In this document: piece by piece, positions 1,968 through 26,051 of the stretch
Numbering within the stretch: the first letter of the stretch is position 1
How the letters are laid out: each line of letters opens with the position of its first letter
Source of the DNA: an uncultured Coriobacteriia bacterium
Lineage (GTDB): Bacteria > Actinomycetota > Coriobacteriia > Coriobacteriales > QAMH01
Direction of reading: 5' to 3'
Assembly (NCBI GenBank): GCA_949879855.1
Contig: CATLBX010000006.1
Coordinates: 1 to 34,533 of the forward strand
Length of the DNA stretch: 34,533 nt
Translations under genes and position numbers: made by a program
Notes under the pieces: generated by a model
Told to the model about the DNA's origin: nothing
What the model saw: the letters and a program-made list of their open reading frames with translations, nothing else
Database searches by the model: none

Positions 1968-3089
1968 TTAGCGTTCTTTCTTATCGAGCAGGTATTCCCT
2001 GAATCCTGGCAACGCAAACGTGAAGACTCCAGGCTCCTGCTCCTCTATGACACCTGCTTCAAGAAGACGCTTCTTATAGGTGGAGATGTAGCTCGTCGTT
2101 TTCCCGAGCCTTTGCATGAGGTTATCACGCGTCGTGTACCCGTCATCATCGAGCATCGCGACGAGAAACGCCCTATCCCCTTTTGAAAGCTCGGCATAGG
2201 TTGAATCGAAGATGCGGCGCGACAGCTCTTCACGGGCAAGTCTGGCGCCTGTCGTCACGTCATCTTTCGTGATGGCACCCCCGCGCGCGATGTTCCACGC
2301 GCGATACCCCACGAGCTGGAACATGAAGGGGAAGCCACCAATCTCGCGCACGGCAACATCGAGTGCGTCCTGCTCGACGATGCGACCTCCCTCTTCGGCT
2401 GTCAGGCGAAACGCCTCCTCGACCTCATCGTCGAAAAGGCCCCCGAGGTCATACTGGGACGCACGACGAAGAAATGACGTCACCTTACCCGATAGCAACG
2501 CCGATACGTTGTGGGGAAGGCCCGCCATGAGCAAGGCGACTTTCCTGTCTTCCCGAATAAAGTGCTGGTATGTCGTCACGAGCTGAATCATCTCGTCCAG
2601 GCTTGGGTCCACTTCGTCGACGGTGATGAGCAAGCCCGTTCCCTCTTCGCCCAGCTCGTTGAGTATCGCGTTCATGCGAGATCGCCAATTGGGTGCTTCG
2701 CCGGACTCGTTCTCCCACGAAACGGCACCAATCCCCGCCACCTCGACGCCTGTCAGCTTCCGCTTCCCTTCTGGAGCAAGCAAATGCGCTGCCGCCTCTT
2801 TGCTGCGCTGCACGATGTCCTCGAGCATGCCTGGCGTTGCCGTAACATTCGCGGCAACCCAGCCCAAGCGTGAGGCCTCGTCGCTTAGGTACGAGAGCAT
2901 CGCCGTCTTTCCCGTGCCGCGAGCACCCACGAAGATGGTGCACAGGTTGGGATTGCCGCTCCCCTCATCGAACGCACGCGCCATCTCGCTGATGACGTCT
3001 TGCCTGCCTGCCATATACGCAGGCACTCGTCCAAATTCTGGCGTGAAGGGATTCTTAGTTATACGAGATGCAAGTTGTTTGTCGGGCAT
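1968..3089 (-). CDS. AAA (AAA_16/Orc1-Cdc6-like) ATP-binding protein with C-terminal winged-helix-like region, paralog 1
   Basis: NPFTPEFGRVPAYMAGR N-terminus, Walker A GARGTGKT, Walker B LLITVDEVDP, C-terminal TTRDNLMQRLGKTTSYISTYKKRLLEAGVIEEQ (wHTH-like). Clearly paralogous to 17893-18984. Confidence 0.85.
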   Translation of the reverse strand: MPDKQLASRITKNPFTPEFGRVPAYMAGRQDVISEMARAFDEGSGNPNLCTIFVGARGTGKTAMLSYLSDEASRLGWVAANVTATPGMLEDIVQRSKEAAAHLLAPEGKRKLTGVEVAGIGAVSWENESGEAPNWRSRMNAILNELGEEGTGLLITVDEVDPSLDEMIQLVTTYQHFIREDRKVALLMAGLPHNVSALLSGKVTSFLRRASQYDLGGLFDDEVEEAFRLTAEEGGRIVEQDALDVAVREIGGFPFMFQLVGYRAWNIARGGAITKDDVTTGARLAREELSRRIFDSTYAELSKGDRAFLVAMLDDDGYTTRDNLMQRLGKTTSYISTYKKRLLEAGVIEEQEPGVFTFALPGFREYLLDKKER

Positions 3090-3131
3090 GGTTACTCCCT
3101 ACCTAGCTTGTCGTCCTCATTATAGTTTTAA

Positions 3132-3200
3132 TTTCTTTGATTCTCCTTGATTTCTTTGATTCTCCTTGATTTCTTTGATTCTCCTTGATTTCTTTGATTT
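3132..3200. repeat. Tandem 19-bp repeat (tttctttgattctccttga, about 3.6 copies), equivalent to seven TTGATT words spaced 10/9/10/9/10/9 bp
   Basis: TTGATT starts at 3137, 3147, 3156, 3166, 3175, 3185, 3194. Array begins 43 bp upstream of the ATPase 1 start codon. Confidence 0.97.
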
Positions 3201-3237
3201 ACAAGGTCAGGGGGTTATGACCGGAGAGGACAACGAA

Positions 3238-3266
3238 AAAGCAGGCAGTTGAAACTACCTGCTTGG
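3238..3266 (-). terminator. Probable rho-independent terminator (minus strand)
   Basis: Minus strand AGCAGGTAGTTTCAACTGCCTGCTTTTT: hairpin with one G.U pair followed by a T-run; lies downstream of the 3385-3750 gene. Confidence 0.65.
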
Positions 3267-3384
3267 TTAGCGAGATTTCTCAATTTCGATGCTTTGAGTC
3301 TCAAGGTGAAATACTGACGGAGATTATCTAGATGCCAAATAGTTGACCAAATGCCTCACGCTGTCTAACCATGCCTGCGCAATC

Positions 3385-3750
3385 TCAGTCCTTCGTATAT
3401 TCGGACTCATCCGCAGGACTCTTCGATGAGTGGCACCAGACAATAGTCGGCGTATCCTCGTCTGGCAGTTCATCATTATCTTCGTCGCCCAAAGCCATTG
3501 TTGCCGTTTCTTTGCACATCAGCTGAGCTTTTGCCTCTTCTGCCTCAGCAGCCTTCTTTGATTGATACCTATCCCAGAGATAATTGACGAGCCAAAGGAA
3601 CCCACAACTAGCCCCTGTTGCAACAGCACCACCTATTGCCCCAGTTTTTATTCCATCGACCCTAGCGGCATCCTCTATTTTTTTCACGTACGCTTCGGGA
3701 CCTCCGGCTTCTTTAGCATTATGAGAAAGTTCTGCGTAAGGCCAGTCCAT
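3385..3750 (-). CDS. Small hypothetical membrane protein
   Basis: MDWPYAELSHNAKEAGGPEAYVKKIEDAARVDGIKTGAIGGAVATGASCGFLWLVNYLWDRYQSKK...; AGGGA RBS before the internal ATG (3748-3750); one predicted TM segment and an acidic C-tail. Confidence 0.7.
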   Translation of the reverse strand: MDWPYAELSHNAKEAGGPEAYVKKIEDAARVDGIKTGAIGGAVATGASCGFLWLVNYLWDRYQSKKAAEAEEAKAQLMCKETATMALGDEDNDELPDEDTPTIVWCHSSKSPADESEYTKD

Positions 3751-3861
3751 TGTTTTTCCCTTCATTACGCGAGGCATCGGTTTAAGTCCTTGCTCAAGCC
3801 ATTCCTAACTTGCAAACACTTGGGATTGCCTGCTTATAACCTGATAAATCGCAAGTGTTTG

Positions 3862-4833
3862 TTATCCAGTAAATCTGTTTGAGCAGGCCGTGCCACGCAT
3901 GCGAACAGTCGCATCTGGTTTTGCCATAGAATCTGGAAGCCATCCGGCAACCAATTTTGCTTTAGATTTAGGATCGATAGAGTCAGTAGAGTAGTTTCTT
4001 GTAACTGCAATCAAGTTATCGTCTGCATCATACATTCCAACAAGGAATATCACGTATTCCGCCTTTTTGTCATATGGGTTCTCTACAATTGCTTCAGGCG
4101 CGAATCTTCCTGATCCAGAACGCGTCACTTCGCCCACATCGAGAGCATCTTTATCGCCCACCACGGCTCTCGTGTAATCGACGTTTACTCTGATTTCCGC
4201 AACTTCATCCTCCCGAGTTACCGGAGTGACAAACCCAGAATACGTATCAAGCCCGTAGTTGATTTTCGATTCCGCAAGAAATTTTGGTGCATACACAACC
4301 GTGTCTGTGCCAGCAACTCTAATACCATTCCCATCGAAATACTGAAATTCAATTTCATTAATATTAATTGGGACATTTGATCTATTTTCAATACTGCAAT
4401 AGCCCAGGAGCTCAAAATTTTCTGCAAAGCTATTTTTGTAGACGTAGAACCCCTTCTGTATTTCTAGGGGGTTTAAAAAAAGCGTAAATGCAATCTTTGC
4501 TTCATTATTCGCTTTGTCCTTTACCGTAAGCTCAACATCGTAGTTTCCGAATTCACCGGTATTGACAGAACCCGTCTCAGAATCATAAATATATTCGTCA
4601 CAGCTAACAGCATACTCAAGCTCATTGAGCTGATATTCGGCTACGCCATCATCTGTTTCATCCGTTATCACAACGTTATCAGCTATGTAGTTATCTAGAT
4701 TGAAGTCCGTGCCACACATAACTTCAACATGCTTCTTATCAAGCCCCTCAACTGTTGGGGGCTTAGTATCACACCCCATTAGCACAAAACACGCTATAAC
4801 TGAGGCAAAACAAAGCACAAGCGTCTTTTTCAT
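3862..4833 (-). CDS. Putative lipoprotein with Ig-like/DUF5011-like N-terminal region
   Basis: MKKTLVLCFASVIACFVLMGCDTKPP signal peptide with lipobox LMGC; GGAGG RBS upstream; GEFGNYDVELTVKDKANNEAKIAFTL resembles bacterial Ig-like/cadherin-type repeats. Confidence 0.8.
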   Translation of the reverse strand: MKKTLVLCFASVIACFVLMGCDTKPPTVEGLDKKHVEVMCGTDFNLDNYIADNVVITDETDDGVAEYQLNELEYAVSCDEYIYDSETGSVNTGEFGNYDVELTVKDKANNEAKIAFTLFLNPLEIQKGFYVYKNSFAENFELLGYCSIENRSNVPININEIEFQYFDGNGIRVAGTDTVVYAPKFLAESKINYGLDTYSGFVTPVTREDEVAEIRVNVDYTRAVVGDKDALDVGEVTRSGSGRFAPEAIVENPYDKKAEYVIFLVGMYDADDNLIAVTRNYSTDSIDPKSKAKLVAGWLPDSMAKPDATVRMRGTACSNRFTG

Positions 4834-4927
4834 TTGCTGCCTCCATCTCGTCACCCGATAACATGCTTTATTCGCACGGCTTCATATATGAAGCCATTTA
4901 GGGCAGTCTAGCACATAGGCTTAGGCA

Positions 4928-5143
4928 ATGAATGCCACGGAAAAACGACTGGCCCTTGGGTCCGCTATTAAAGCCCGGCGAGAGGAGCAGGGGCTCTCGC
5001 AAGCGCGCCTCGCCCTCATGATTGGCAGCAGCAAATCCCACATCTGGCGTATCGAAACCGGCAGGGTGAGCGTGGGACTTGACGACCTTGGTCGCATTGC
5101 CGATGCGCTAGGCATCAGCGTGAAGTCACTCGTCGAATTCTAG
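4928..5143 (+). CDS. XRE-family helix-turn-helix protein (71 aa)
   Basis: KARREEQGLSQARLALMIGSSKSHIWRIETGRVSVGLDDLGRIADALGISVKSLVEF: canonical HTH_3 pattern. Confidence 0.92.
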   Translation: MNATEKRLALGSAIKARREEQGLSQARLALMIGSSKSHIWRIETGRVSVGLDDLGRIADALGISVKSLVEF

Positions 5144-16747: not shown

Positions 16748-17752
16748 TTATGCCACGAGGAACTTGGCCAGGTCGATGCAGCGAGCGGAATAGCCCATCT
16801 CGTTGTCGTACCAGGAGATGCACTTCACGAAATTGCCCTCGCCGTCGAGCACCTTGGTGAGCTTGCTATCGAAAATCGAGGAGTGCGTGTCGCCAATGAC
16901 GTCGCAGCTGACGATGGGATCGACGCAATACTCGAGGATGCCCTTCATCGGGCCCTCGGCGGCAGCCTTCATGGCAGCGTTGATCTCGTCGGCGGTGACG
17001 TTCTTCTCGAGCTCGGCCGTGAGGTCGACCATCGAGCCCGTCGGCGTGGGAACGCGGGTCGCGAAACCGTCGAGCTTGCCGTTGAGCTCGGGGAGCACGA
17101 GACCGACGGCCTTGGCCGCGCCCGTGGAGGTGGGAATCATGGAAAGGGCCGCAGCGCGCGAGCGACGGAAGTCCTTATGGTGCACGTCGAGGATCTTCTG
17201 GTCGTTGGTGTAGGCGTGAATGGTGTTCATGAGGCCGCGCTTGATGCCGAAGTTGTCGTTGAGGACCTTGGCGAACGGCGCGAGGCAGTTGGTCGTGCAC
17301 GAGGCGTTGGAGACGATGTTCATCGTGGCCGGGTCGTAGATGTCCTGGTTGACGCCCATGACGATGGTGGCATCCACGTCGGTGCCCGGAGCGGAGATGA
17401 CGACCTTCTTGGCGCCATTGTCGAGATGCACCTGGCAGGCCTCGCCGGTCTTGAGGCGACCCGTGGACTCGATGACGACCTCCGCGCCAACGGAAGCCCA
17501 GTCGAGCTCCTTGGGCTCGCGCGTCTGGAACGCCTTGACCTCGTGGCCCTCGACGACGAGCGCGCCTTCCTTGGCGTAGCAATCCTCGAAGACACGGCCC
17601 TGGCTGGAATCGTACTTGGTAAGGTACGCCGCGCACTCGAGATCACTCGGGTTGTTGATGGCGACGACCTCTACATCGGGATCGAGCTCTGCGAGACGAA
17701 AGACCAGACGGCCGATGCGACCAAAACCATTGATGCCGATTTTGAGAGACAT
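16748..17752 (-). CDS. gapA: Glyceraldehyde-3-phosphate dehydrogenase, type I
   Basis: MSLKIGINGFGRIGRLVFRLAELDPDVEVVAINNPSD; NIVSNASCTTNCLAPFAKVLND; KAVGLVLPELNGKLDGFATRVPTPTGS. Confidence 0.97.
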   Translation of the reverse strand: MSLKIGINGFGRIGRLVFRLAELDPDVEVVAINNPSDLECAAYLTKYDSSQGRVFEDCYAKEGALVVEGHEVKAFQTREPKELDWASVGAEVVIESTGRLKTGEACQVHLDNGAKKVVISAPGTDVDATIVMGVNQDIYDPATMNIVSNASCTTNCLAPFAKVLNDNFGIKRGLMNTIHAYTNDQKILDVHHKDFRRSRAAALSMIPTSTGAAKAVGLVLPELNGKLDGFATRVPTPTGSMVDLTAELEKNVTADEINAAMKAAAEGPMKGILEYCVDPIVSCDVIGDTHSSIFDSKLTKVLDGEGNFVKCISWYDNEMGYSARCIDLAKFLVA

Positions 17753-17844
17753 TCCAGATTCACCTTCCCCTAAAAGGAACATTGACGGCACAAGTATACC
17801 GGAGGGGCGCCCCATCGAGCGCAAGTGTTCGACGGACGGGATAA

Positions 17845-17876
17845 TGAGACGAGCGGTGCCTGGGGTGCTTGTCTCG
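17845..17876. repeat. TGAGAC(A/G)A...TTGTCTC(A/G) element, divergent single copy
   Basis: tgagacgagcggtgcctggggtgcttgtctcg, just past the 3' end of ATPase 2. Confidence 0.75.
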
Positions 17877-17892
17877 TTGCGGCATCGCACGC

Positions 17893-18984
17893 TTACTCGT
17901 TATGCTCCAGATACTCTTTGAAGAAAGGCAGTTCGAATGCGACTTGCCCACGGGCAGGCCTACCCACAATGCCCGCGTTCATCAAGCGCGATACGTATTG
18001 CCCGACTTGAGCTGGTGACCATTTCAACCGCTCTGCAAGATCAGAAACACGACTAGGTTCATGGTCTTCAAGCATTGCGCGGGCAAGCGCAATGTCATTA
18101 TTTGATAGCTCCCGATATGTAGCCCCGAGAACGCGCTCATTCATTTCCATCATGGCCAAATCAATTCCAAGTTGGATGTCATTGGCTGATATGCGTTCTT
18201 CTGCGGGATTCGCATCCCATGCCTGGAAACCAATCAGTTGCATTAAAAAAGGAAAGCCTCCAATAGCAGTGATTGCGTCGTGGAGGTCGCGACGTTCAAC
18301 GCTTCTTCCAGAGGTTTCAATCATTCTTAGCATCGCCGATTCAACTTCGTAATCCGGAATTGGCCCCAAACTAACTTGTCGTGCTCGACGAAGAAAAGAT
18401 ACTGTCTTGTCATTGAGAAGGCTAGATACACGGTATGGGAGGCCCGCGAGCATAAGCGCAACCTTTCGGCCTTCCCCCACAAAATGCTGATAAACCGCAA
18501 CAAGCTCTCGGAGCTCATCGAGATTCGGATCGAGTTCGTCCACAGTTATGAGAAGGCCCGTGCCTTTCTCCTGTAGCTGGGACAATAGGGTGTCCATACG
18601 CCAGCGCCAATTACTGGCCGGGGCGTTTTCCCTCCCAATCTGAACCTCCAGTATCTGAGGAATGCCAATGCCGGAAACATGGCCTCCCAACTCCTTGCCA
18701 ACGAGGTGCTCAGATTTGCGATTAGCTCCGATTTCCAAATCTGAAAGCATTCCCGGAAGCGCTGTTGTGCCAACCGTTATCCATCCGTTTTGCTCAGCCA
18801 AATTCGCCGCTTCGAGAAGCATTGTTGTCTTGCCTGTGCCTCGTGCTCCAGAAATAAGAAGTGTCAATTCCGGACGGCGTGTTTCGCTTTGAAAGGCACG
18901 CCGGAGACTCTCGAGCAGTTGGGACCTTCCGGCAAGAATAGTGGGGGTTTCGCCAAATCCAGGAGTGAAGGGGTTGGTAGTCAT
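17893..18984 (-). CDS. AAA (AAA_16/Orc1-Cdc6-like) ATP-binding protein with C-terminal winged-helix-like region, paralog 2
   Basis: MTTNPFTPGFGETPTILAGRSQLLESLRRAF; Walker A GARGTGKT; Walker B LLITVDELDP; wHTH-like SRVSDLAERLKWSPAQVGQYVSRLMNAGIVGRP. Confidence 0.85.
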   Translation of the reverse strand: MTTNPFTPGFGETPTILAGRSQLLESLRRAFQSETRRPELTLLISGARGTGKTTMLLEAANLAEQNGWITVGTTALPGMLSDLEIGANRKSEHLVGKELGGHVSGIGIPQILEVQIGRENAPASNWRWRMDTLLSQLQEKGTGLLITVDELDPNLDELRELVAVYQHFVGEGRKVALMLAGLPYRVSSLLNDKTVSFLRRARQVSLGPIPDYEVESAMLRMIETSGRSVERRDLHDAITAIGGFPFLMQLIGFQAWDANPAEERISANDIQLGIDLAMMEMNERVLGATYRELSNNDIALARAMLEDHEPSRVSDLAERLKWSPAQVGQYVSRLMNAGIVGRPARGQVAFELPFFKEYLEHNE

Positions 18985-19004
18985 CGCTTGTTCCCGTTCT
19001 GTGC

Positions 19005-19064
19005 CTATTAGAAACTATTAAAAGTTATTAAAATCTATTAAAAGTATTATGTCTATTAATAAAG
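19005..19064. repeat. Phased array of TATTA words (10-bp units ctattaaaag/ttattaaaat) upstream of ATPase 2
   Basis: TATTA starts at 19006, 19016, 19026, 19036, 19045, 19054 (spacing 10/10/10/9/9); begins 22 bp from the start codon. Confidence 0.93.
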
Positions 19065-19145
19065 TTTTTTAATGCTCGGTTTAATAATTTTGATTATTGC
19101 AGCGCACGGGCATGTTGAAATATCAGTAAAACAAACCGGGATGAT

Positions 19146-19156
19146 CCCCCCCCCCC
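19146..19156. repeat. Poly-C homopolymer (C11)
   Basis: Direct read: gat-ccccccccccc-ggcc. Confidence 0.9.
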
Positions 19157-19266
19157 GGCCCTTCGCTGTTGATAGTTCGCGAACGCGGCTACTTCATAGT
19201 AGCTACATACCAGCCATGTCCCCGCCCCACCATCTGACTGAGACGAGACTATTATGCTCAGTGAGT

Positions 19267-20301
19267 CTATTTTAGACTGCGGGCTTGAGAAAGCAGTCGT
19301 GCATTTATGCCGACAAGAGCGCCCTCATATATATGAAAGGGCAAGGGCAAATCATGGCGATCCTTGTAGAACTTCATCTGCGAAAGCAAAGTTGTCGCTA
19401 GCGCGGTCTGCTGCAAACAGATTGAAGAAACTTCTTGAGAATATGCCATTCGATTCACAGTGTCGAAGCACTTGTCTATATTCCTGCTAATTAAATCAGT
19501 GTCGCTCCGTACTTCCACCAGCGCATCATAGAGAAGGTGCTGGTTATTTTGAATCGCATGCAGGGCCTGCAAAGCTTGTTCTGAATTATCAATCAAGCGG
19601 TCCAATCGGACTTCAAGCTCATATTGATTGTAGGCTTCGCCAAGCTCGGAAAATCTACCCGAGTCAAAATACTCATATAGCTGACAAACAGCTGGAAGCG
19701 ATTGATATTTTCTGTATATTGGACCATCGGAATAGTACTCATAAAGCATTCGCTCGCACACTGCCTTGAGCTCGCTGATTGGCAACGAACCAGATTGGAA
19801 ATCTGCAGTTGTTTCTGCATCAATTTTTTTCTCTTGGGCAATGTCAGATTCCCATTTCTCCTTTGCCGATTTATTTTCCCTTTTTTTCGCTTCACTTTTT
19901 CTCATGCTATTCGATGCACCTATTTCCCATGAAATCAATGCTCCTATGCCCGCGCCAATGGCTGCACATATGACAGCCGCAATGGCAAAAACAAAAAAGT
20001 TTCCAAGCCATACGATTGAGTTATCGCTCGTTTCAACGATCTGCCATTCGCTAATAAACTCAAAAGCGAACCCTATAATTCCGCCAATCACAGCACCAAT
20101 ATTTCTTGCGCTTAAATCGGCTTTGGCTTTTTCTCGCTCAATATTCGCATTGGGTGGTTTGAAATCGGGATACTCCTTGTTTTCCATTTGGAGAATCCTG
20201 CAATTAACGTGCTTTTCCAGCTCGTCCAATTTCATGAGCATGACTTCGAGGTCACGCGCGGTCTTTAGATATTCGAGTATCTCATCTTTGTCGTTTTTCA
20301 A
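19267..20301 (-). CDS. Hypothetical membrane protein with glycine-zipper-like TM helices and coiled-coil regions (344 aa)
   Basis: IGAVIGGIIGFAFEFI and FFVFAIAAVICAAIGAGIGALISWEIGA TM segments; soluble helical C-terminal region. Confidence 0.75.
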   Translation of the reverse strand: MKNDKDEILEYLKTARDLEVMLMKLDELEKHVNCRILQMENKEYPDFKPPNANIEREKAKADLSARNIGAVIGGIIGFAFEFISEWQIVETSDNSIVWLGNFFVFAIAAVICAAIGAGIGALISWEIGASNSMRKSEAKKRENKSAKEKWESDIAQEKKIDAETTADFQSGSLPISELKAVCERMLYEYYSDGPIYRKYQSLPAVCQLYEYFDSGRFSELGEAYNQYELEVRLDRLIDNSEQALQALHAIQNNQHLLYDALVEVRSDTDLISRNIDKCFDTVNRMAYSQEVSSICLQQTALATTLLSQMKFYKDRHDLPLPFHIYEGALVGINARLLSQARSLK

Positions 20302-20407
20302 ATGAGGTCTCCGATAATGCCTATAACCATATGAAACTCGATACAGTCAGTAATGTGAGAGTAAAACTCACGCGAATGATATGGATTTATTCAATGGGAG
20401 CGAATAT

Positions 20408-20521
20408 TTACTTCGCTTTGCCTGATCCCCCACAATTAGGACAAGTAGTGAACTTCTCACCATCAGCTGTTTTTACCCTTACGAGGCCTTTCCCGTTACA
20501 GCGGGGACAATTATTGGCCAT
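20408..20521 (-). CDS. 37-aa mini-protein with two CxxCxGxG (DnaJ-type zinc-ribbon) motifs
   Basis: Minus translation MANNCPRCNGKGLVRVKTADGEKFTTCPNCGGSGKAK*; GGAGAGGAATGAACA-ATG RBS. Below the ORF-track size cutoff. Confidence 0.72.
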   Translation of the reverse strand: MANNCPRCNGKGLVRVKTADGEKFTTCPNCGGSGKAK

Positions 20522-20623
20522 TGTTCATTCCTCTCCTGAAAGCCGTCATGAATTAGGCGGTACTTGTGCTACCTTGATTAGGAACCCGGGCAAAGAAGCT
20601 TAAGCTTCGCTGGTTCAACTAAT

Positions 20624-20809
20624 TTATTTTCCAGCGCAATACATCATGCACTTGCAGCCACAGGGAGTACCAGGCTGCGCACTGTAAGGCTGACAGATAG
20701 TGCCGCAGGGCGCCATGCCAGCATTATGTGACATCTGTACGGCGGCCATAGATATAAAGCCAGATGATCTACCGGCACCTATGTCCAAACCTTCTCGAAT
20801 AACTGTCAT
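20624..20809 (-). CDS. Cys-rich RiPP precursor-like peptide (61 aa)
   Basis: MTVIREGLDIGAGRSSGFISMAAVQMSHNAGMAPCGTICQPYSAQPGTPCGCKCMMYCAGK; all six Cys in the C-terminal 29 residues; AAAGGA RBS; directly upstream of (co-directional with) the rSAM gene. Confidence 0.8.
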   Translation of the reverse strand: MTVIREGLDIGAGRSSGFISMAAVQMSHNAGMAPCGTICQPYSAQPGTPCGCKCMMYCAGK

Positions 20810-20827
20810 TGCCAATCCTTTCTCTCG

Positions 20828-22120
20828 TTAGAATGATCTATCAATATGGGATTTACACCCCAAGAGATAGCCTGCTGCGTCAACAATTGCATCCGTGATG
20901 AATGCAATATGCGGACAACGCTTTAATCCGAAGTTCAGTGTCTCGGCGGCATAGCACCCAGCTTGGCAGCTCGGCAAAAACACGCACTTTCGACATTTTG
21001 CGGGAATATTCGGGGATGCCCATTCAACCATAGCCTCGTTAAACAAAACGCCTTCAAATACGTTCCCGATCCGCTGTCTGCCCTCAGTTAGCAGATGCTC
21101 GCACTTAAATACGTCTCCTGAAGGGTCAATTACAAAGTTGTTAATCATCTGAGCCGAGCATGTAGCGTTGTTGAAATTCAGTGGAAGCCCATCGACTGTC
21201 TGAATAAAGCCCGCATCAATCATTGCGTAAAATACGCTCTTGTATATTTCGCTCAGGTCATCTTCCGTGAAAAAGTCTTCTTGATTGCCGCTTCCGTACA
21301 GCGGAGCAGCATAAAGCATCACCGTGTCCAGCCCCTTGTATCTCTCTCCAAGAAGAGGAATTAGATTCAGGCAGTCTCGATAATTCCTTCTATCAATATT
21401 CAGGCGTATTAGAAGTTTGGCACCTTGCTCGACGAATGCATCCATAGCCAAAAGCACGCTATCAAAAGTCACGTCTTTCGAAATATACGCCTTCCTCCGC
21501 AAGTGCTCTTCAGCCAACCCATCCAAAGTGACTTGAGCCTGAGAAACTCTGCAATCGTGAACAAGCAGACGAACGACATCGGCTGTTGCCAAAGTTGCAT
21601 TTGTAATAATGTCAGACGTATATCCAATGCCGTGTTTCTCCGACATGTCTATAATCTGATTCGAAAGTTCGTAAATCCGATCAATCTCGAGCATAGGTTC
21701 GCCACCGAACCATGTTACGTGTACGTTGTCAACCATGCCCATGTAGCTCTCGATGAAAGACGGAATCGCCTTTGCGACCGCATCCTTCATGCAAACGGCT
21801 TTGTAAGACTGTTCATAACAGTAAAAGCAGCGTGCATTACAGGCTGTTGTTGGCAATATCTGGAAACCGGCAAATCGTGTCGAGTAATTGTTCATGCGCT
21901 GAATAGCTAAGACTTTCTCAATCTCGTCTTCTTCTGCAGGTACGACAAACCCATTCTCCATAGCCATGCGCAGCAGATCAGGATCTACGAACTCGCAGCT
22001 CTTAATCTGCTTGTATTCTGATCTTTCAATTACGGCGACAGCTGAAGTAACCAGGTTATATAAAAACACCTGGTCAACAATCATGCCGGAATGGTTATAT
22101 CTTGACGCCTTGTAATTCAT
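20828..22120 (-). CDS. Radical SAM/SPASM domain peptide maturase
   Basis: LPTTACNARCFYCYEQ (CxxxCxxC), TWFGGEPML, C-terminal Cys set CSAQMINNFVIDPSGDVFKCEHL...CRKCVFLPSCQAGCYA...CPH. Confidence 0.93.
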   Translation of the reverse strand: MNYKASRYNHSGMIVDQVFLYNLVTSAVAVIERSEYKQIKSCEFVDPDLLRMAMENGFVVPAEEDEIEKVLAIQRMNNYSTRFAGFQILPTTACNARCFYCYEQSYKAVCMKDAVAKAIPSFIESYMGMVDNVHVTWFGGEPMLEIDRIYELSNQIIDMSEKHGIGYTSDIITNATLATADVVRLLVHDCRVSQAQVTLDGLAEEHLRRKAYISKDVTFDSVLLAMDAFVEQGAKLLIRLNIDRRNYRDCLNLIPLLGERYKGLDTVMLYAAPLYGSGNQEDFFTEDDLSEIYKSVFYAMIDAGFIQTVDGLPLNFNNATCSAQMINNFVIDPSGDVFKCEHLLTEGRQRIGNVFEGVLFNEAMVEWASPNIPAKCRKCVFLPSCQAGCYAAETLNFGLKRCPHIAFITDAIVDAAGYLLGCKSHIDRSF

Positions 22121-22231
22121 TCGTTTGGGCTTTCGTTTTTGTTTCCGACGATAGTCCTACAGCTTCCCTCTTCTCACCTAAATGCTGCATTTCATGTTTT
22201 CGTACCGGCCGTTTAGCACAGTTAAAGCCAA

Positions 22232-22717
22232 TTACTCTGCCCAACTCTCGATTACCTGTTGAATCGTTTGAAGCAGGGCGCCGTAGTACATGCCTTCTTC
22301 CTCGACAGCATTCTGATCTGTCACCGCTTTCTGCAAGGCGCCTGTAATCGAGAACATACCCTTGCTTTCAGCAGAGTTCATGCGTTGCATTGCAGAGGAA
22401 GGGGTGCCTTGCTGCACGACATCTATTGCCAGAATTCCTGCGTTTTTATTTATTCCCACCAGATAACGCGCCCAGTCAGCATGATCAGGAAAAGAAAATT
22501 CGACGCCCGGGAAAACTTTACTGTTCAGGAGCCCGCCAATGGTGATATCAGTTTTGGAGGCGTCTACGGTGATGCCATACTGGTTCCCCATGGATTCCTT
22601 AACATCATTGGCTAAGCTCTCCGCAAGAGCATCTTGATTAATATCAGCGGCACCGCCGAAATTTGTACCCCATTGATGGAACGGATTCTGCGAGAGTGGT
22701 TTCTTGAATTTCGGCAT
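22232..22717 (-). CDS. Hypothetical protein (161 aa), first gene of the rSAM cassette
   Basis: MPKFKKPLSQNPFHQWGTNFGGAADINQDALAESLANDVKESMGNQYGITVDASK...; AAAGGA RBS; same strand as rSAM and precursor. Confidence 0.75.
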   Translation of the reverse strand: MPKFKKPLSQNPFHQWGTNFGGAADINQDALAESLANDVKESMGNQYGITVDASKTDITIGGLLNSKVFPGVEFSFPDHADWARYLVGINKNAGILAIDVVQQGTPSSAMQRMNSAESKGMFSITGALQKAVTDQNAVEEEGMYYGALLQTIQQVIESWAE

Positions 22718-22771
22718 TTCTAATCCTTTCAGGTCATGCAGTAAACCCGATACTCTGGGTCAAAAAGGCAA

Positions 22772-22806
22772 GCTATATATTTATAGAAACGCTATAAATA
22801 TATAGC
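22772..22806. promoter_or_regulatory. Perfect palindromic candidate operator (15-5-15)
   Basis: gctatatatttatag-aaacg-ctataaatatatagc; abuts a minus-strand TATAAT (22808-22813) with TTGCAA (22829-22834) upstream. Confidence 0.8.
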
Positions 22807-22978
22807 AATTATAAATCATCATCAAGGTTTGCAAATAAAAAGGGATATATTTAAGTGCGATTATTAGCTGGTTTTCTTATCAAATAATAACCAATTTTTT
22901 ATGACGCTATTTATATTATGTGGATTAGTAATTGCTATTCAGATTACATCGACATTCCTACCTTCCAAGGAGCTGTCG

Positions 22979-23443
22979 ATGGATATCCGGAAGACGTTTG
23001 CAAACAATATAAGGGAATACCGCAAAGCCACGGGGTTAACCCAAGAGGGGCTTGCAGAATTGAGCGGCCTACATAGAACTTATATTGGAGGTATTGAGCA
23101 GGGCCGTATAAATGTTAGCTTAAACAACGTATCGAAAATTGCCGAGGCCCTCAACATTAGCCCATCTTTGCTGTTTATGAATCCCGCTGGTTCTGCAGCT
23201 GAAGTAGTTAAGAACATAAACGGCGAAGATAATTGTGCCCTGACTTACTACGCTCTTTGCAAATTCAGAGAAAACGAAGCCACTGTTCAACCACTAAACA
23301 TGGTTGATGTAGATATTGATACGCAAATTCTCTACTCTCTCATTCGCGATGGTGTAGACGACACCGAGGAGCTTGCTCAAAAGATGAAAACCACTCGGCT
23401 GCGCATACTCGATTATTTAAGTAATCACTGCCGTACAAGCTAA
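22979..23443 (+). CDS. XRE-family transcriptional regulator with C-terminal extension, divergent from the rSAM cassette
   Basis: MDIRKTFANNIREYRKATGLTQEGLAELSGLHRTYIGGIEQGRINVSLNNVSKIAEALNISPSLLF; AAGGAG RBS before the ATG at 22979. Confidence 0.9.
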   Translation: MDIRKTFANNIREYRKATGLTQEGLAELSGLHRTYIGGIEQGRINVSLNNVSKIAEALNISPSLLFMNPAGSAAEVVKNINGEDNCALTYYALCKFRENEATVQPLNMVDVDIDTQILYSLIRDGVDDTEELAQKMKTTRLRILDYLSNHCRTS

Positions 23444-23520
23444 GCAGAGGCCCTTCCGTTATGCGATCCTGCAGTCGTCTCAACCAAAATGATACAGGGC
23501 CTTGACACGCGACCTGTCGT

Positions 23521-23564
23521 GAGGTTCCTCAGCTCCGCTTCGGCGCGCTCGGGGTAACAAGACA
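23521..23564. repeat. Divergent copy of the GAGRTTYCTC...GACA dispersed repeat, 3' of proB
   Basis: gaggttcctcagctccgcttcggcgcgctcggggtaacaagaca. Confidence 0.55.
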
Positions 23565-23567
23565 GAG

Positions 23568-24638
23568 CTAGAAGATGACGAGCTCGTCGCGGTTGATGAA
23601 CTCGCGCTCGCCGTGTTTGCCGAGCAACCCGGAGAGCTCATCAGCAGCGTATCCGGCAAGTCCACGGCCGATGATGCGACCCTGCAAGTCGACGACATCG
23701 ACCGGGTCGCCCGCCACAAACGCACCCTCGACCGACGAGATGCCCACGGGCAGCAGCGAGCCGCCGTGATTGAGCAGCGCGTTGCAGGCTCCATCATCGC
23801 AGGCCACGCGACCCTTGACCTTGCCGCCGAGCGCAATCCACGACTTGCGTGCCGCCAGGCCGTTCGAGCTCTCGTCGAAGAAGGTCGTGCCGACCTGACG
23901 CCCGTGTACCGCATCGGTGATGGCTCCGCGGCGATGGCCCTCGCAGATGACCATCGGAATGCCGGCCGCCATGAGCACGCGCGCGGCCGCAATCTTGGTG
24001 AGCATGCCGCCCGAACCGCTGCGGCTGCCGACACCCCCGGCGCCATTCTCGATTTCCTCGCTCATCTTGCTCACCGTGTTGAGCAACTCGGCGTCCTCGT
24101 TCTTGCGCGGGTCGGCCGTATACAGACCGTCGATATCGCTCAGCAGAACCACGAGGTCGGCGTTCACGGAGGTCGCGACCATGGCCGCGAGCGTATCGTT
24201 GTCGCCGAAGCGAATCTCCTCGACGGCAACGGTATCGTTCTCGTTGATGATGGGCACCACGCCGAGCTCGAGCAGGCGCTCAATCGTGTCGCGCGCATGC
24301 AGGTAGGATTCGCGCTGACCCGTGGTCGCGCGCGTCATGAGGATCTGGCCCACCGTCACGCCAAAGCAGGCGAAGGTGTCGGTGTACTGGCGGATGAGGC
24401 CGACCTGGCCAATCGAGGCTGCGGCCTGCAGCGTGGGCATGTCGTCGGGACGATCACCGTGGATGCCGAGCACCTCGAGGCCGAGCGCGATGGAACCCGA
24501 GGACACGATGATGGGCTGAATGCCCTCGTCGTGCATGAGGTTGGCGCATTCCGAGGCAAGGTGCCCCACGAAGACAGCGTCGACCTTCCCGTCCTTCACG
24601 AGGGTGGACGAGCCAATCTTGATTACCACGCGTTTCAT
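23568..24638 (-). CDS. proB: Glutamate 5-kinase (with PUA domain)
   Basis: MKRVVIKIGSSTLVKDGKVD; IIVSSGSIALGLE; PIINENDTVAVEEIRFGDNDTLAAMVA; LLSDIDGLYTADPR; GSGGMLTKIAAARVLMAAGIPMVI. Confidence 0.97.
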   Translation of the reverse strand: MKRVVIKIGSSTLVKDGKVDAVFVGHLASECANLMHDEGIQPIIVSSGSIALGLEVLGIHGDRPDDMPTLQAAASIGQVGLIRQYTDTFACFGVTVGQILMTRATTGQRESYLHARDTIERLLELGVVPIINENDTVAVEEIRFGDNDTLAAMVATSVNADLVVLLSDIDGLYTADPRKNEDAELLNTVSKMSEEIENGAGGVGSRSGSGGMLTKIAAARVLMAAGIPMVICEGHRRGAITDAVHGRQVGTTFFDESSNGLAARKSWIALGGKVKGRVACDDGACNALLNHGGSLLPVGISSVEGAFVAGDPVDVVDLQGRIIGRGLAGYAADELSGLLGKHGEREFINRDELVIF

Positions 24639-24641
24639 CGT

Positions 24642-26051
24642 CTAGCCCTCTCGGTCAATGATGTTATCGAATTCCTCGTCGCCCCAGCCCGCAGGCTCGA
24701 ACTCGAAGGCGATGTCCATGATGCGCACCTCGTCGCCGGCATGCGCGCCCGCCGCGGTAAGCGCACGCTCGACACCGGCACGCTCCATGCGGCGCTGGAG
24801 AAAGGCGACGGCCTCGTCGTTATCCCATTCGGTCTGAACGACCATGCGCTCGACGCCGCGTCCATGCACGCGCCAGGCATGCGGCTCCTCTTCCTCGACC
24901 TCGATGGCGCGGTCACGCTCGAGGCGCTTGTGCTCCCAAATCTGGTCGTACTCGGGCATCGGGTCTTCGGCCGCCTGCTCGCGCAGACGATGGACCTCGG
25001 TTGCCGTTGCCGCGATGAGCGAGTCAATGCCCGTCTGCGTCACGGCGCTCACCGCGAAAAACGGGATGGGATTAGCGATGTCGATGCCATCGTCGAGCAG
25101 GCGCTCGGAAAGTTCCTCGCTTTCGGCCTTCACATGTGCGCGCAGACGCTCGAGGTTTTCCTCGGTGCCGGGCACGTCGACCTTGTTGCCCACAACGATG
25201 ACGGGACGATCCGCAAGCTCGGGTGCATAGAGGCGCAGCTCGCGTTTGATGATTTCGTAATCCTCGACCGGGTCGCGCCCCTCGAGGCCACCCGTCAGGT
25301 CGACAACGTGCAAGATGAGCGCCGTGCGCTCGACATGGCGCAGGAACTCGTGACCGAGGCCCTTGCCCTCGGCAGCGCCCTCGATAAGACCGGGAACGTC
25401 GGCCACCGTGAAGCTCAGGTCGCCGTAGCGCACCATGCCGAGATTGGGCGTGAGCGTCGTGAACGGATAATCAGCAATCTTGGGACGCGCGGCCGACATG
25501 CAGGCGATGAGCGAGCTCTTGCCCACCGACGGCATGCCCACGAGCGCGGCATCGGCCATGAGCTTCATCTCGAGCTCGATCCAGAACGGCTCGGTCGGCT
25601 CGCCCAGCTCGGAGAACGAAGGGGCACGCCTCGTCGGCGTGACGAAGTGCGTATTGCCGCGACCGCCGCGACCGCCCTTGGCGACGATTACGCGCTCGCC
25701 GTTGTGCGTGAGGTCCGCGATTTCCTCGCTCGGCTCGAGGTCTTCGTCGAGCAGGCGCACGACCGTGCCCACGGGCACCTTGAGGATGAGGTCCTCGCCA
25801 TTCGCGCCGTGCATGCGCTTGCCCTGGCCATGCGTGCCCTTCTGCGCCTTGAAGTGGTGCTTGTAGCGATAGTCGATGAGCGTGGAGACCGTAGCATCCG
25901 CGACGATGACAATATCGCCTCCGCGTCCACCATCGCCGCCATCCGGGCCGCCCTTGGGGACATGGGCCTCGCGGCGAAACGAGGTGCAGCCGGCACCGCC
26001 GTTGCCAGACTTGACCTGGATGCGTACCTGGTCGGTGAAAGTCCCCGCCAT
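24642..26051 (-). CDS. obgE: GTPase Obg
   Basis: MAGTFTDQVRIQVKSGNGGAGCTSFRREAHVPKGGPDGGDGGRGGDIVIVAD; ADAALVGMPSVGKSSLI; FTVADVPGLIEGAAEGKGLGHEFLRHVERT; C-terminal Obg domain. Confidence 0.98.
   Translation of the reverse strand: MAGTFTDQVRIQVKSGNGGAGCTSFRREAHVPKGGPDGGDGGRGGDIVIVADATVSTLIDYRYKHHFKAQKGTHGQGKRMHGANGEDLILKVPVGTVVRLLDEDLEPSEEIADLTHNGERVIVAKGGRGGRGNTHFVTPTRRAPSFSELGEPTEPFWIELEMKLMADAALVGMPSVGKSSLIACMSAARPKIADYPFTTLTPNLGMVRYGDLSFTVADVPGLIEGAAEGKGLGHEFLRHVERTALILHVVDLTGGLEGRDPVEDYEIIKRELRLYAPELADRPVIVVGNKVDVPGTEENLERLRAHVKAESEELSERLLDDGIDIANPIPFFAVSAVTQTGIDSLIAATATEVHRLREQAAEDPMPEYDQIWEHKRLERDRAIEVEEEEPHAWRVHGRGVERMVVQTEWDNDEAVAFLQRRMERAGVERALTAAGAHAGDEVRIMDIAFEFEPAGWGDEEFDNIIDREG

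Follow-up and report, generated by a model that had tools for sequence, protein, structure and literature searches.

A putative radical SAM/SPASM peptide cassette with an invariant cysteine-rich core on a genomic island in Coriobacteriales

Within a window of 34,533 nucleotides (the whole stretch of DNA analysed, from an uncultured Coriobacteriia bacterium), the gap between gapA and proB harbors a gene cluster that probably represents a RiPP cassette, acquired by horizontal transfer, belonging to a new subfamily and controlled by an XRE-type regulator; its product would carry a cross-linked, invariant core and serve a conserved role outside an arms race. The RiPP reading of the locus is well supported by comparative sequence analysis, and a RiPP-type subfamily of this kind apparently has not been described so far. 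The preliminary description of this DNA had proposed a RiPP locus of unclear class, a view that is supported here: the maturase stays under all family cut-offs, and the peptide is co-conserved. Linkage of a precursor gene to a modifying enzyme across genomes, a general criterion for RiPP systems, is observed in four genomes.

Genomic island and gene content

The gap between gapA and proB consists of an island of 5,717 bp (Table 1), as delimited by blastn against genomes of the same genus. In the same-genus genome G002, whose GapA and ProB are 97% identical, both genes are separated by 14 bp; in the congener G001 the distance is about 43 bp. The GC content of the island is 42–47%, versus 60–65% in its surroundings. 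The AT-rich, acquired island suggested in the preliminary description is thus borne out, with the gapA-proB site empty in both congeners. No tRNA was seen at the island, and an unsystematic look noticed neither an integrase-like gene nor a terminal repeat.

All genes of the cluster are located inside the island. The minus strand encodes, in order of transcription, p161, the maturase, the precursor, a 37-aa mini-protein and p344, with the XRE gene in divergent orientation. Every gene listed previously (a 161-aa protein, a radical SAM/SPASM maturase, a six-cysteine peptide, a 37-aa double-CxxC protein and a divergent XRE regulator) was found again, and the cluster runs past the left edge formerly assigned to it (20408) to reach p344. 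Neither p344, nor the XRE-type operator candidate, nor the spread of p161, p344 and the mini-protein over other radical SAM peptide loci had been described. The earlier remark that no transporter or protease is obvious extends to the examined cassettes, which likewise contain no transporter or peptidase; nor is there an immunity gene in the cassette.

Table 1. Features of the island, with positions in the window
Feature	Position	Strand	Basis
Whole island	17848..23564		blastn: window 16761-17847 and 23565-25977 contiguous in G002
AAA_16 ATPase with C-terminal HTH	17893..18984	-	AAA_16 E=2.3e-10; inside island
p344, 344 aa, membrane-anchored helical protein, last operon gene	19267..20301	-	TM about residues 105-123 (hydropathy)
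Mini-protein, 37 aa, two CxxCxGxG-type motifs	20408..20521	-	weak DnaJ_CXXCXGXG and Zn_ribbon_TFIIB matches
Precursor, 61 aa, MTVIREGLDIGAGRSSGFISMAAVQMSHNAGMAPCGTICQPYSAQPGTPCGCKCMMYCAGK	20624..20809	-	orthologues 62-77% identical beside all three maturase orthologues
C-terminal core of precursor, residues 33-61, six Cys	20627..20713	-	codon comparison with Rubneribacter
Radical SAM/SPASM peptide maturase, 430 aa	20828..22120	-	PF04055 35.6 bits (cut-off 29.5); SPASM TIGR04085 47.6 (27)
p161, 161 aa, first operon gene	22232..22717	-	no family match
Perfect 15-nt inverted repeat, 5-nt spacer	22772..22806		arms 22772-22786/22792-22806
Promoter-like site of p161-to-p344 operon	22808..22835	-	TTTGCA-16-TATAAT, 10/12 consensus bases; weak alone, the number of such sites in the region not being above shuffles
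XRE/HTH_3 regulator, 154 aa	22979..23443	+	HTH_3 E=2e-16; AAGGAG upstream of ATG 22979

The AAA_16 ATPase was considered as a further member of the system and set aside, with no significant tblastn match in the cassettes L028–L030. A second AAA ATPase with an alike N-terminus (NPFTPxFG...AGR) is encoded at 1968–3089(-), and each of the two stands beside an AT-rich tract; possibly, both represent a common accessory gene of mobile elements. The second tract (3100–5000, about 44% GC) holds a 330-aa putative lipoprotein (...MGCDTKPPTVEGLDKKH...). An interpretation as phage or plasmid cargo was likewise rejected: p344 has no match in phage and plasmid collections, p161 none in the plasmid collection, to which its search was confined, and maturase profile, core pattern and p344 all lack matches in IMG/VR.

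Maturase

The maturase contains the CX3CX2C motif at residues 94/98/101 and seven SPASM cysteines (321, 340, 376, 379, 385, 389 and 402) that match the SPASM pattern (C321-X13-G335-X4-C340; C376X2C379X5C385X3C389; C402). All radical SAM and SPASM cysteines are invariant in the maturase alignment A2. The best NCBIfam scores are 198.7 bits for TIGR04463 (cut-off 525), 157.3 for CefB (NF038107, cut-off 600) and 142.8 for Clo7bot (TIGR04334, cut-off 600), followed by the geopeptide family (130, cut-off 400) and PapB (100, cut-off 340); the maturase is therefore not an equivalog of TIGR04463, Clo7bot or CefB. It is similar to these three over its length, and their relatives adjoin annotated Cys-rich precursors. 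Judged from these scores, the enzyme is a relative of the maturases of Cys-rich peptides and of the thioether type, and a member of none of these families. As the nearest families are all under cut-off, the bond type is not assignable from family scores.

Three specific assignments were rejected. For an anaerobic sulfatase maturase the score is low (TIGR03942, 60.3 bits, cut-off 349) and the operon contains no sulfatase; the match to prokaryotic viperin (41 bits) is confined to the radical SAM core, the maturase having a full SPASM domain instead; and a SCIFF maturase is disfavored by TIGR03974 (58.9 bits, cut-off 425), with a precursor that fits no NCBIfam peptide model. The closest solved structure is CteB (5wgg, E=9e-17). 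RRE domains in a RiPP maturase or its partner are common, though not universal; residues 1–90 gave no Pfam match to RRE/PqqD. An AF2 model of low confidence (pLDDT 54, too poor for a fold search) places a strand-helix-helix-strand arrangement at the N-terminus. In a tree in which several of the other rows are incomplete, the maturase and its three orthologues form one clade (support 99/100), separate from those of Clo7bot and CefB and from other maturases of Coriobacteriales.

Precursor peptide and related cassettes

The gene for the six-cysteine peptide is confirmed, with a revised start: instead of TTG 20815, the most likely start is ATG 20809, which has a good Shine-Dalgarno sequence and yields 61 aa, the length of all orthologues. 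The last 29 residues are identical between the window and Rubneribacter, the last 21 in all four loci. The dense cysteine pattern CxCxCxxxC (CGCKCMMYC) is invariant. Within the 29 codons of the core, 16 synonymous and no nonsynonymous differences separate the window from Rubneribacter, versus 7 synonymous and 14 nonsynonymous differences in the 32 codons of the leader. To judge from this comparison the core is under strict purifying selection, and the two ratios argue strongly for production of the peptide and for its C-terminal part as the target of selection.

Orthologues of the maturase occur in G305 (79% identity), G306 (79%) and G043 (58%). A profile scan of the species genomes of GTDB yielded these three loci and no others, and identified them as Candidatus Rubneribacter avistercoris, Rubneribacter badeniensis ResAG-85 and Atopobium sp. 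UBA2090; the scan rests on short patterns and may let more distant members escape; a single-protein scan of genome contigs for the maturase found nothing. Among the 399 genomes of the order, the peptide profile matches four loci at E<1e-30, the only clear matches, with the next best at E=2e-4 and the rest near noise. The maturase, precursor, p161 and CxxCxGxG mini-protein are co-conserved in four genomes of three families, with identities across the four cassettes of 40–79% overall and 54–81% for the mini-protein. Each orthologous locus contains the precursor, p161 (40–70% identity) and one or more CxxCxGxG mini-proteins, while gene order and extra genes vary. Compared across these loci, the recurrence of peptide, p161 and mini-protein by orthologous maturases is well beyond chance. 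Two possible refutations named in the preliminary description, a maturase falling into a characterised family and a peptide not kept beside maturase orthologues, both failed: no curated cut-off is reached, and the peptide is found next to every close orthologue.

A clear p344 occurs in three of these four cassettes (66% identical in both Rubneribacter loci), and UBA2090 perhaps harbors a broken p344-like gene. A Sel1-type protein, absent from the window, is found in Rubneribacter (710 aa) and, as assigned by eye only, in UBA2090 (352 aa). A literature search on TIGR04463, Rubneribacter radical SAM proteins or Sel1 in RiPP loci returned nothing relevant.

Comparison with known RiPP systems

TIGR04463/CefB resembles the window's maturase over nearly its full length, including the N-terminal domain (residues 16–389 versus 10–394 of 438). 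As here, one maturase is located beside a Cys-rich peptide, and the Methylomagnum relative adjoins CefA. CefA, however, has repeats with a cysteine at every fifth position, whereas the window's precursor is short, with six irregularly spaced cysteines and no such repeats, and the accessory genes are unlike. Clo7bot systems likewise combine a SPASM maturase with short Cys-rich peptides, but with many tandem precursors and an ABC transporter, where the window has one precursor and no transporter. Moreover, in Paraclostridium the Clo7bot leader is fixed (MKFIKKPxRKFEEG) and the core varies, the reverse of the variable leader and invariant core observed here. The SCIFF/ranthipeptide system (CteA-CteB, TIGR03973/TIGR03974) shares the six-cysteine, unusually conserved peptide and the SPASM maturase; it differs in family scores, as given above. 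CcpM (TIGR04068) and the CXXX-repeat family (TIGR04115) are best matches of the maturases linked to p161 and p344 in G140, and not of the window's maturase.

Regulation

The XRE reading frame opens at 22901; Shine-Dalgarno sequence and start codon favor ATG 22979, most likely the start. Between this gene and p161, a perfect inverted repeat adjoins the -10 box of the promoter-like site of the operon. A comparable repeat was found in none of 2000 shuffles and none of 2000 first-order Markov sequences of the intergenic region. On this sequence evidence the repeat is a likely XRE operator, and the divergent XRE gene beside it makes it natural to infer that XRE acts as the repressor. In the other loci, no comparable inverted repeat precedes p161, and a close relative of the window's XRE gene is likewise missing.

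Accessory proteins

p161 has no match in Pfam, NCBIfam, PHROGs or PADLOC. In the order, 7 of 399 genomes have a strong homologue and 2 a weak one; a sample of 367 genomes from the phylum contained none beyond the order itself. Foldseek with the AF2 model (pLDDT 68, pTM 0.67) gave weak, mixed matches (SciW/DcrB/PsbP-like with TM about 0.38; PR-10/START-like), which were set aside. Relatives of the mini-protein adjoin p161 in L028 (two copies), L030, L044 and L045; a role as second precursor is unlikely, as G269 retains the mini-protein next to p161 but has no maturase there. p344, with a single clear hydrophobic segment and no family match in NCBIfam and Pfam, is one of a broader group of helical membrane proteins that has no name so far; it is 49–53% identical to its orthologues in the G140 and G214 loci. 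The motif GPIYxxYQxLPAxCQLYEYF also occurs outside RiPP loci, in a p344-like protein of G067 (L074, 8901–9905) and, in diverged form, in G076 (L076, 4461–5690).

Six of the seven strong p161 loci hold radical SAM genes together with a Cys-rich peptide, namely the four orthologous cassettes and the loci of G214 and G140. By our own arithmetic, from about 20 radical SAM matches in a 1.87-Mb genome, a random gene has a chance of about 12% of lying within 6 kb of a radical SAM gene. The G214 locus combines p161 with a peptide whose three repeats bear Cys, a radical SAM protein of 385 aa, a 60-aa protein, a Sel1-type protein, p344 and an additional SPASM protein. The repeats of its peptide are imperfect and of the MHAVSVYDR/MHDVNAYSIRR type, and the peptide lies beside the 385-aa protein, itself unassigned (L043, 3862–5498 for the pair); together they are a candidate for a different RiPP, accompanied by p161 and p344. 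The G140 locus groups a Sel1-type protein and two copies of p161 with a Cys-rich peptide of 58 aa, two radical SAM proteins whose nearest families are TIGR04115/PapB and CcpM, a CxxCxGxG mini-protein and p344. One of its p161 copies is fused to a TPR-like domain, and its two different maturases surround the single peptide (L044, 8605–13361). The Sel1-type proteins of Rubneribacter (L028, 3465–5597), G214 (L043, 2886–3686) and G140 (L044, 7670–8404) have a C-terminal FKKKMFGG in common, with otherwise low similarity.

p161, p344, the Sel1-type proteins and the mini-proteins thus look like a common accessory module of three dissimilar types of radical SAM/Cys-peptide cassettes. The three types of cassette seen in the four full lineages of p161 are suggestive of an accessory link, on few cases. 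We note that G269 harbors p161 and the mini-protein alone, without maturase, and that G025 harbors p161-like and p344-like proteins without radical SAM genes; hence p161, p344 and the mini-protein are not strictly tied to RiPPs. That they form an undescribed, membrane-linked module of Coriobacteriales, which combines with interchangeable cassettes and delivers or reads the modified peptide inside the producer, is a tentative proposal.

Proposed function and alternatives

In the proposed mechanism, XRE would bind the inverted repeat and keep the operon repressed until a signal lifts repression, upon which p161, maturase, precursor, mini-protein and p344 would be produced together. The maturase would use a 5'-deoxyadenosyl radical to cross-link the precursor (61 aa) in its C-terminal core CGTICQPYSAQPGTPCGCKCMMYC, with Cys-based thioethers as the most likely cross-links. 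Plausible tasks of p161 and the zinc mini-protein are to handle the thiol-rich peptide, to present it or to hold its thiols free, and p344 may place or sense the peptide at the membrane. Given a core that stays frozen against a drifting leader, and a cassette devoid of transporter, protease and immunity genes, our analysis suggests that a conserved cell-internal or signalling role of the product is more likely than an antibiotic one.

The opposite reading, a secreted sactibiotic-like antimicrobial that leaves the cell through a general transporter encoded elsewhere and to which p344 confers immunity at the membrane, is unlikely. Radical SAM Cys-rich peptides do include antibiotics (PMC8326336), p344 has a membrane segment, and the cassette is mobile and patchy. 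But the core is undiversified across three families, the cassettes lack transporter and peptidase, and p344 also turns up next to unrelated peptides or with no peptide at all; in the case of the SCIFF peptides, their wide conservation has been argued to speak against an antimicrobial function (PMC8326336). We judge it quite improbable that the peptide mainly binds a metal or cofactor in the manner of a metallothionein, with only a minor change made by the radical SAM enzyme. The invariant, cysteine-dense core and the adjoining zinc mini-protein fit this idea, yet the relatives of the maturase work beside precursors that undergo, or are predicted to undergo, cross-linking, and metal-related genes are absent nearby.

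Alternatively, p161, p344, Sel1-type proteins and zinc mini-proteins may constitute an independent membrane-adaptor or stress/defence system with radical SAM-peptide pairs as exchangeable effectors, a possibility that we take seriously while considering it doubtful. The occurrence of the module with maturases of three dissimilar types, and partly without any, points in this direction, as do the island setting, the XRE regulator and the AAA ATPase; the consistent presence of radical SAM and Cys-rich peptide genes at all but one of the strong p161 loci argues against it, and matches to defence families are limited to generic HTH and viperin-like radical SAM similarity. That the island is decaying or non-functional is very improbable: the missing Sel1 gene, present in Rubneribacter and UBA2090, and the absence of the cassette from congeners are outweighed by five of five core ORFs being intact and by differences in the core that are mostly synonymous.

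The RiPP cassette adds an uncharacterised radical SAM peptide subfamily to gut Actinomycetota, with a core frozen across families, and provides a test case for why bacteria retain conserved, apparently non-antibiotic RiPPs such as the SCIFF peptides. The set of p161, p344, Sel1-type and zinc mini-proteins supplies named candidates whose accessory functions can be tested; a genome search built on family models would miss p161 and p344, because neither has a model. With Rubneribacter badeniensis ResAG-85 as a named strain that harbors an intact cassette, the system is open to study in an isolate.
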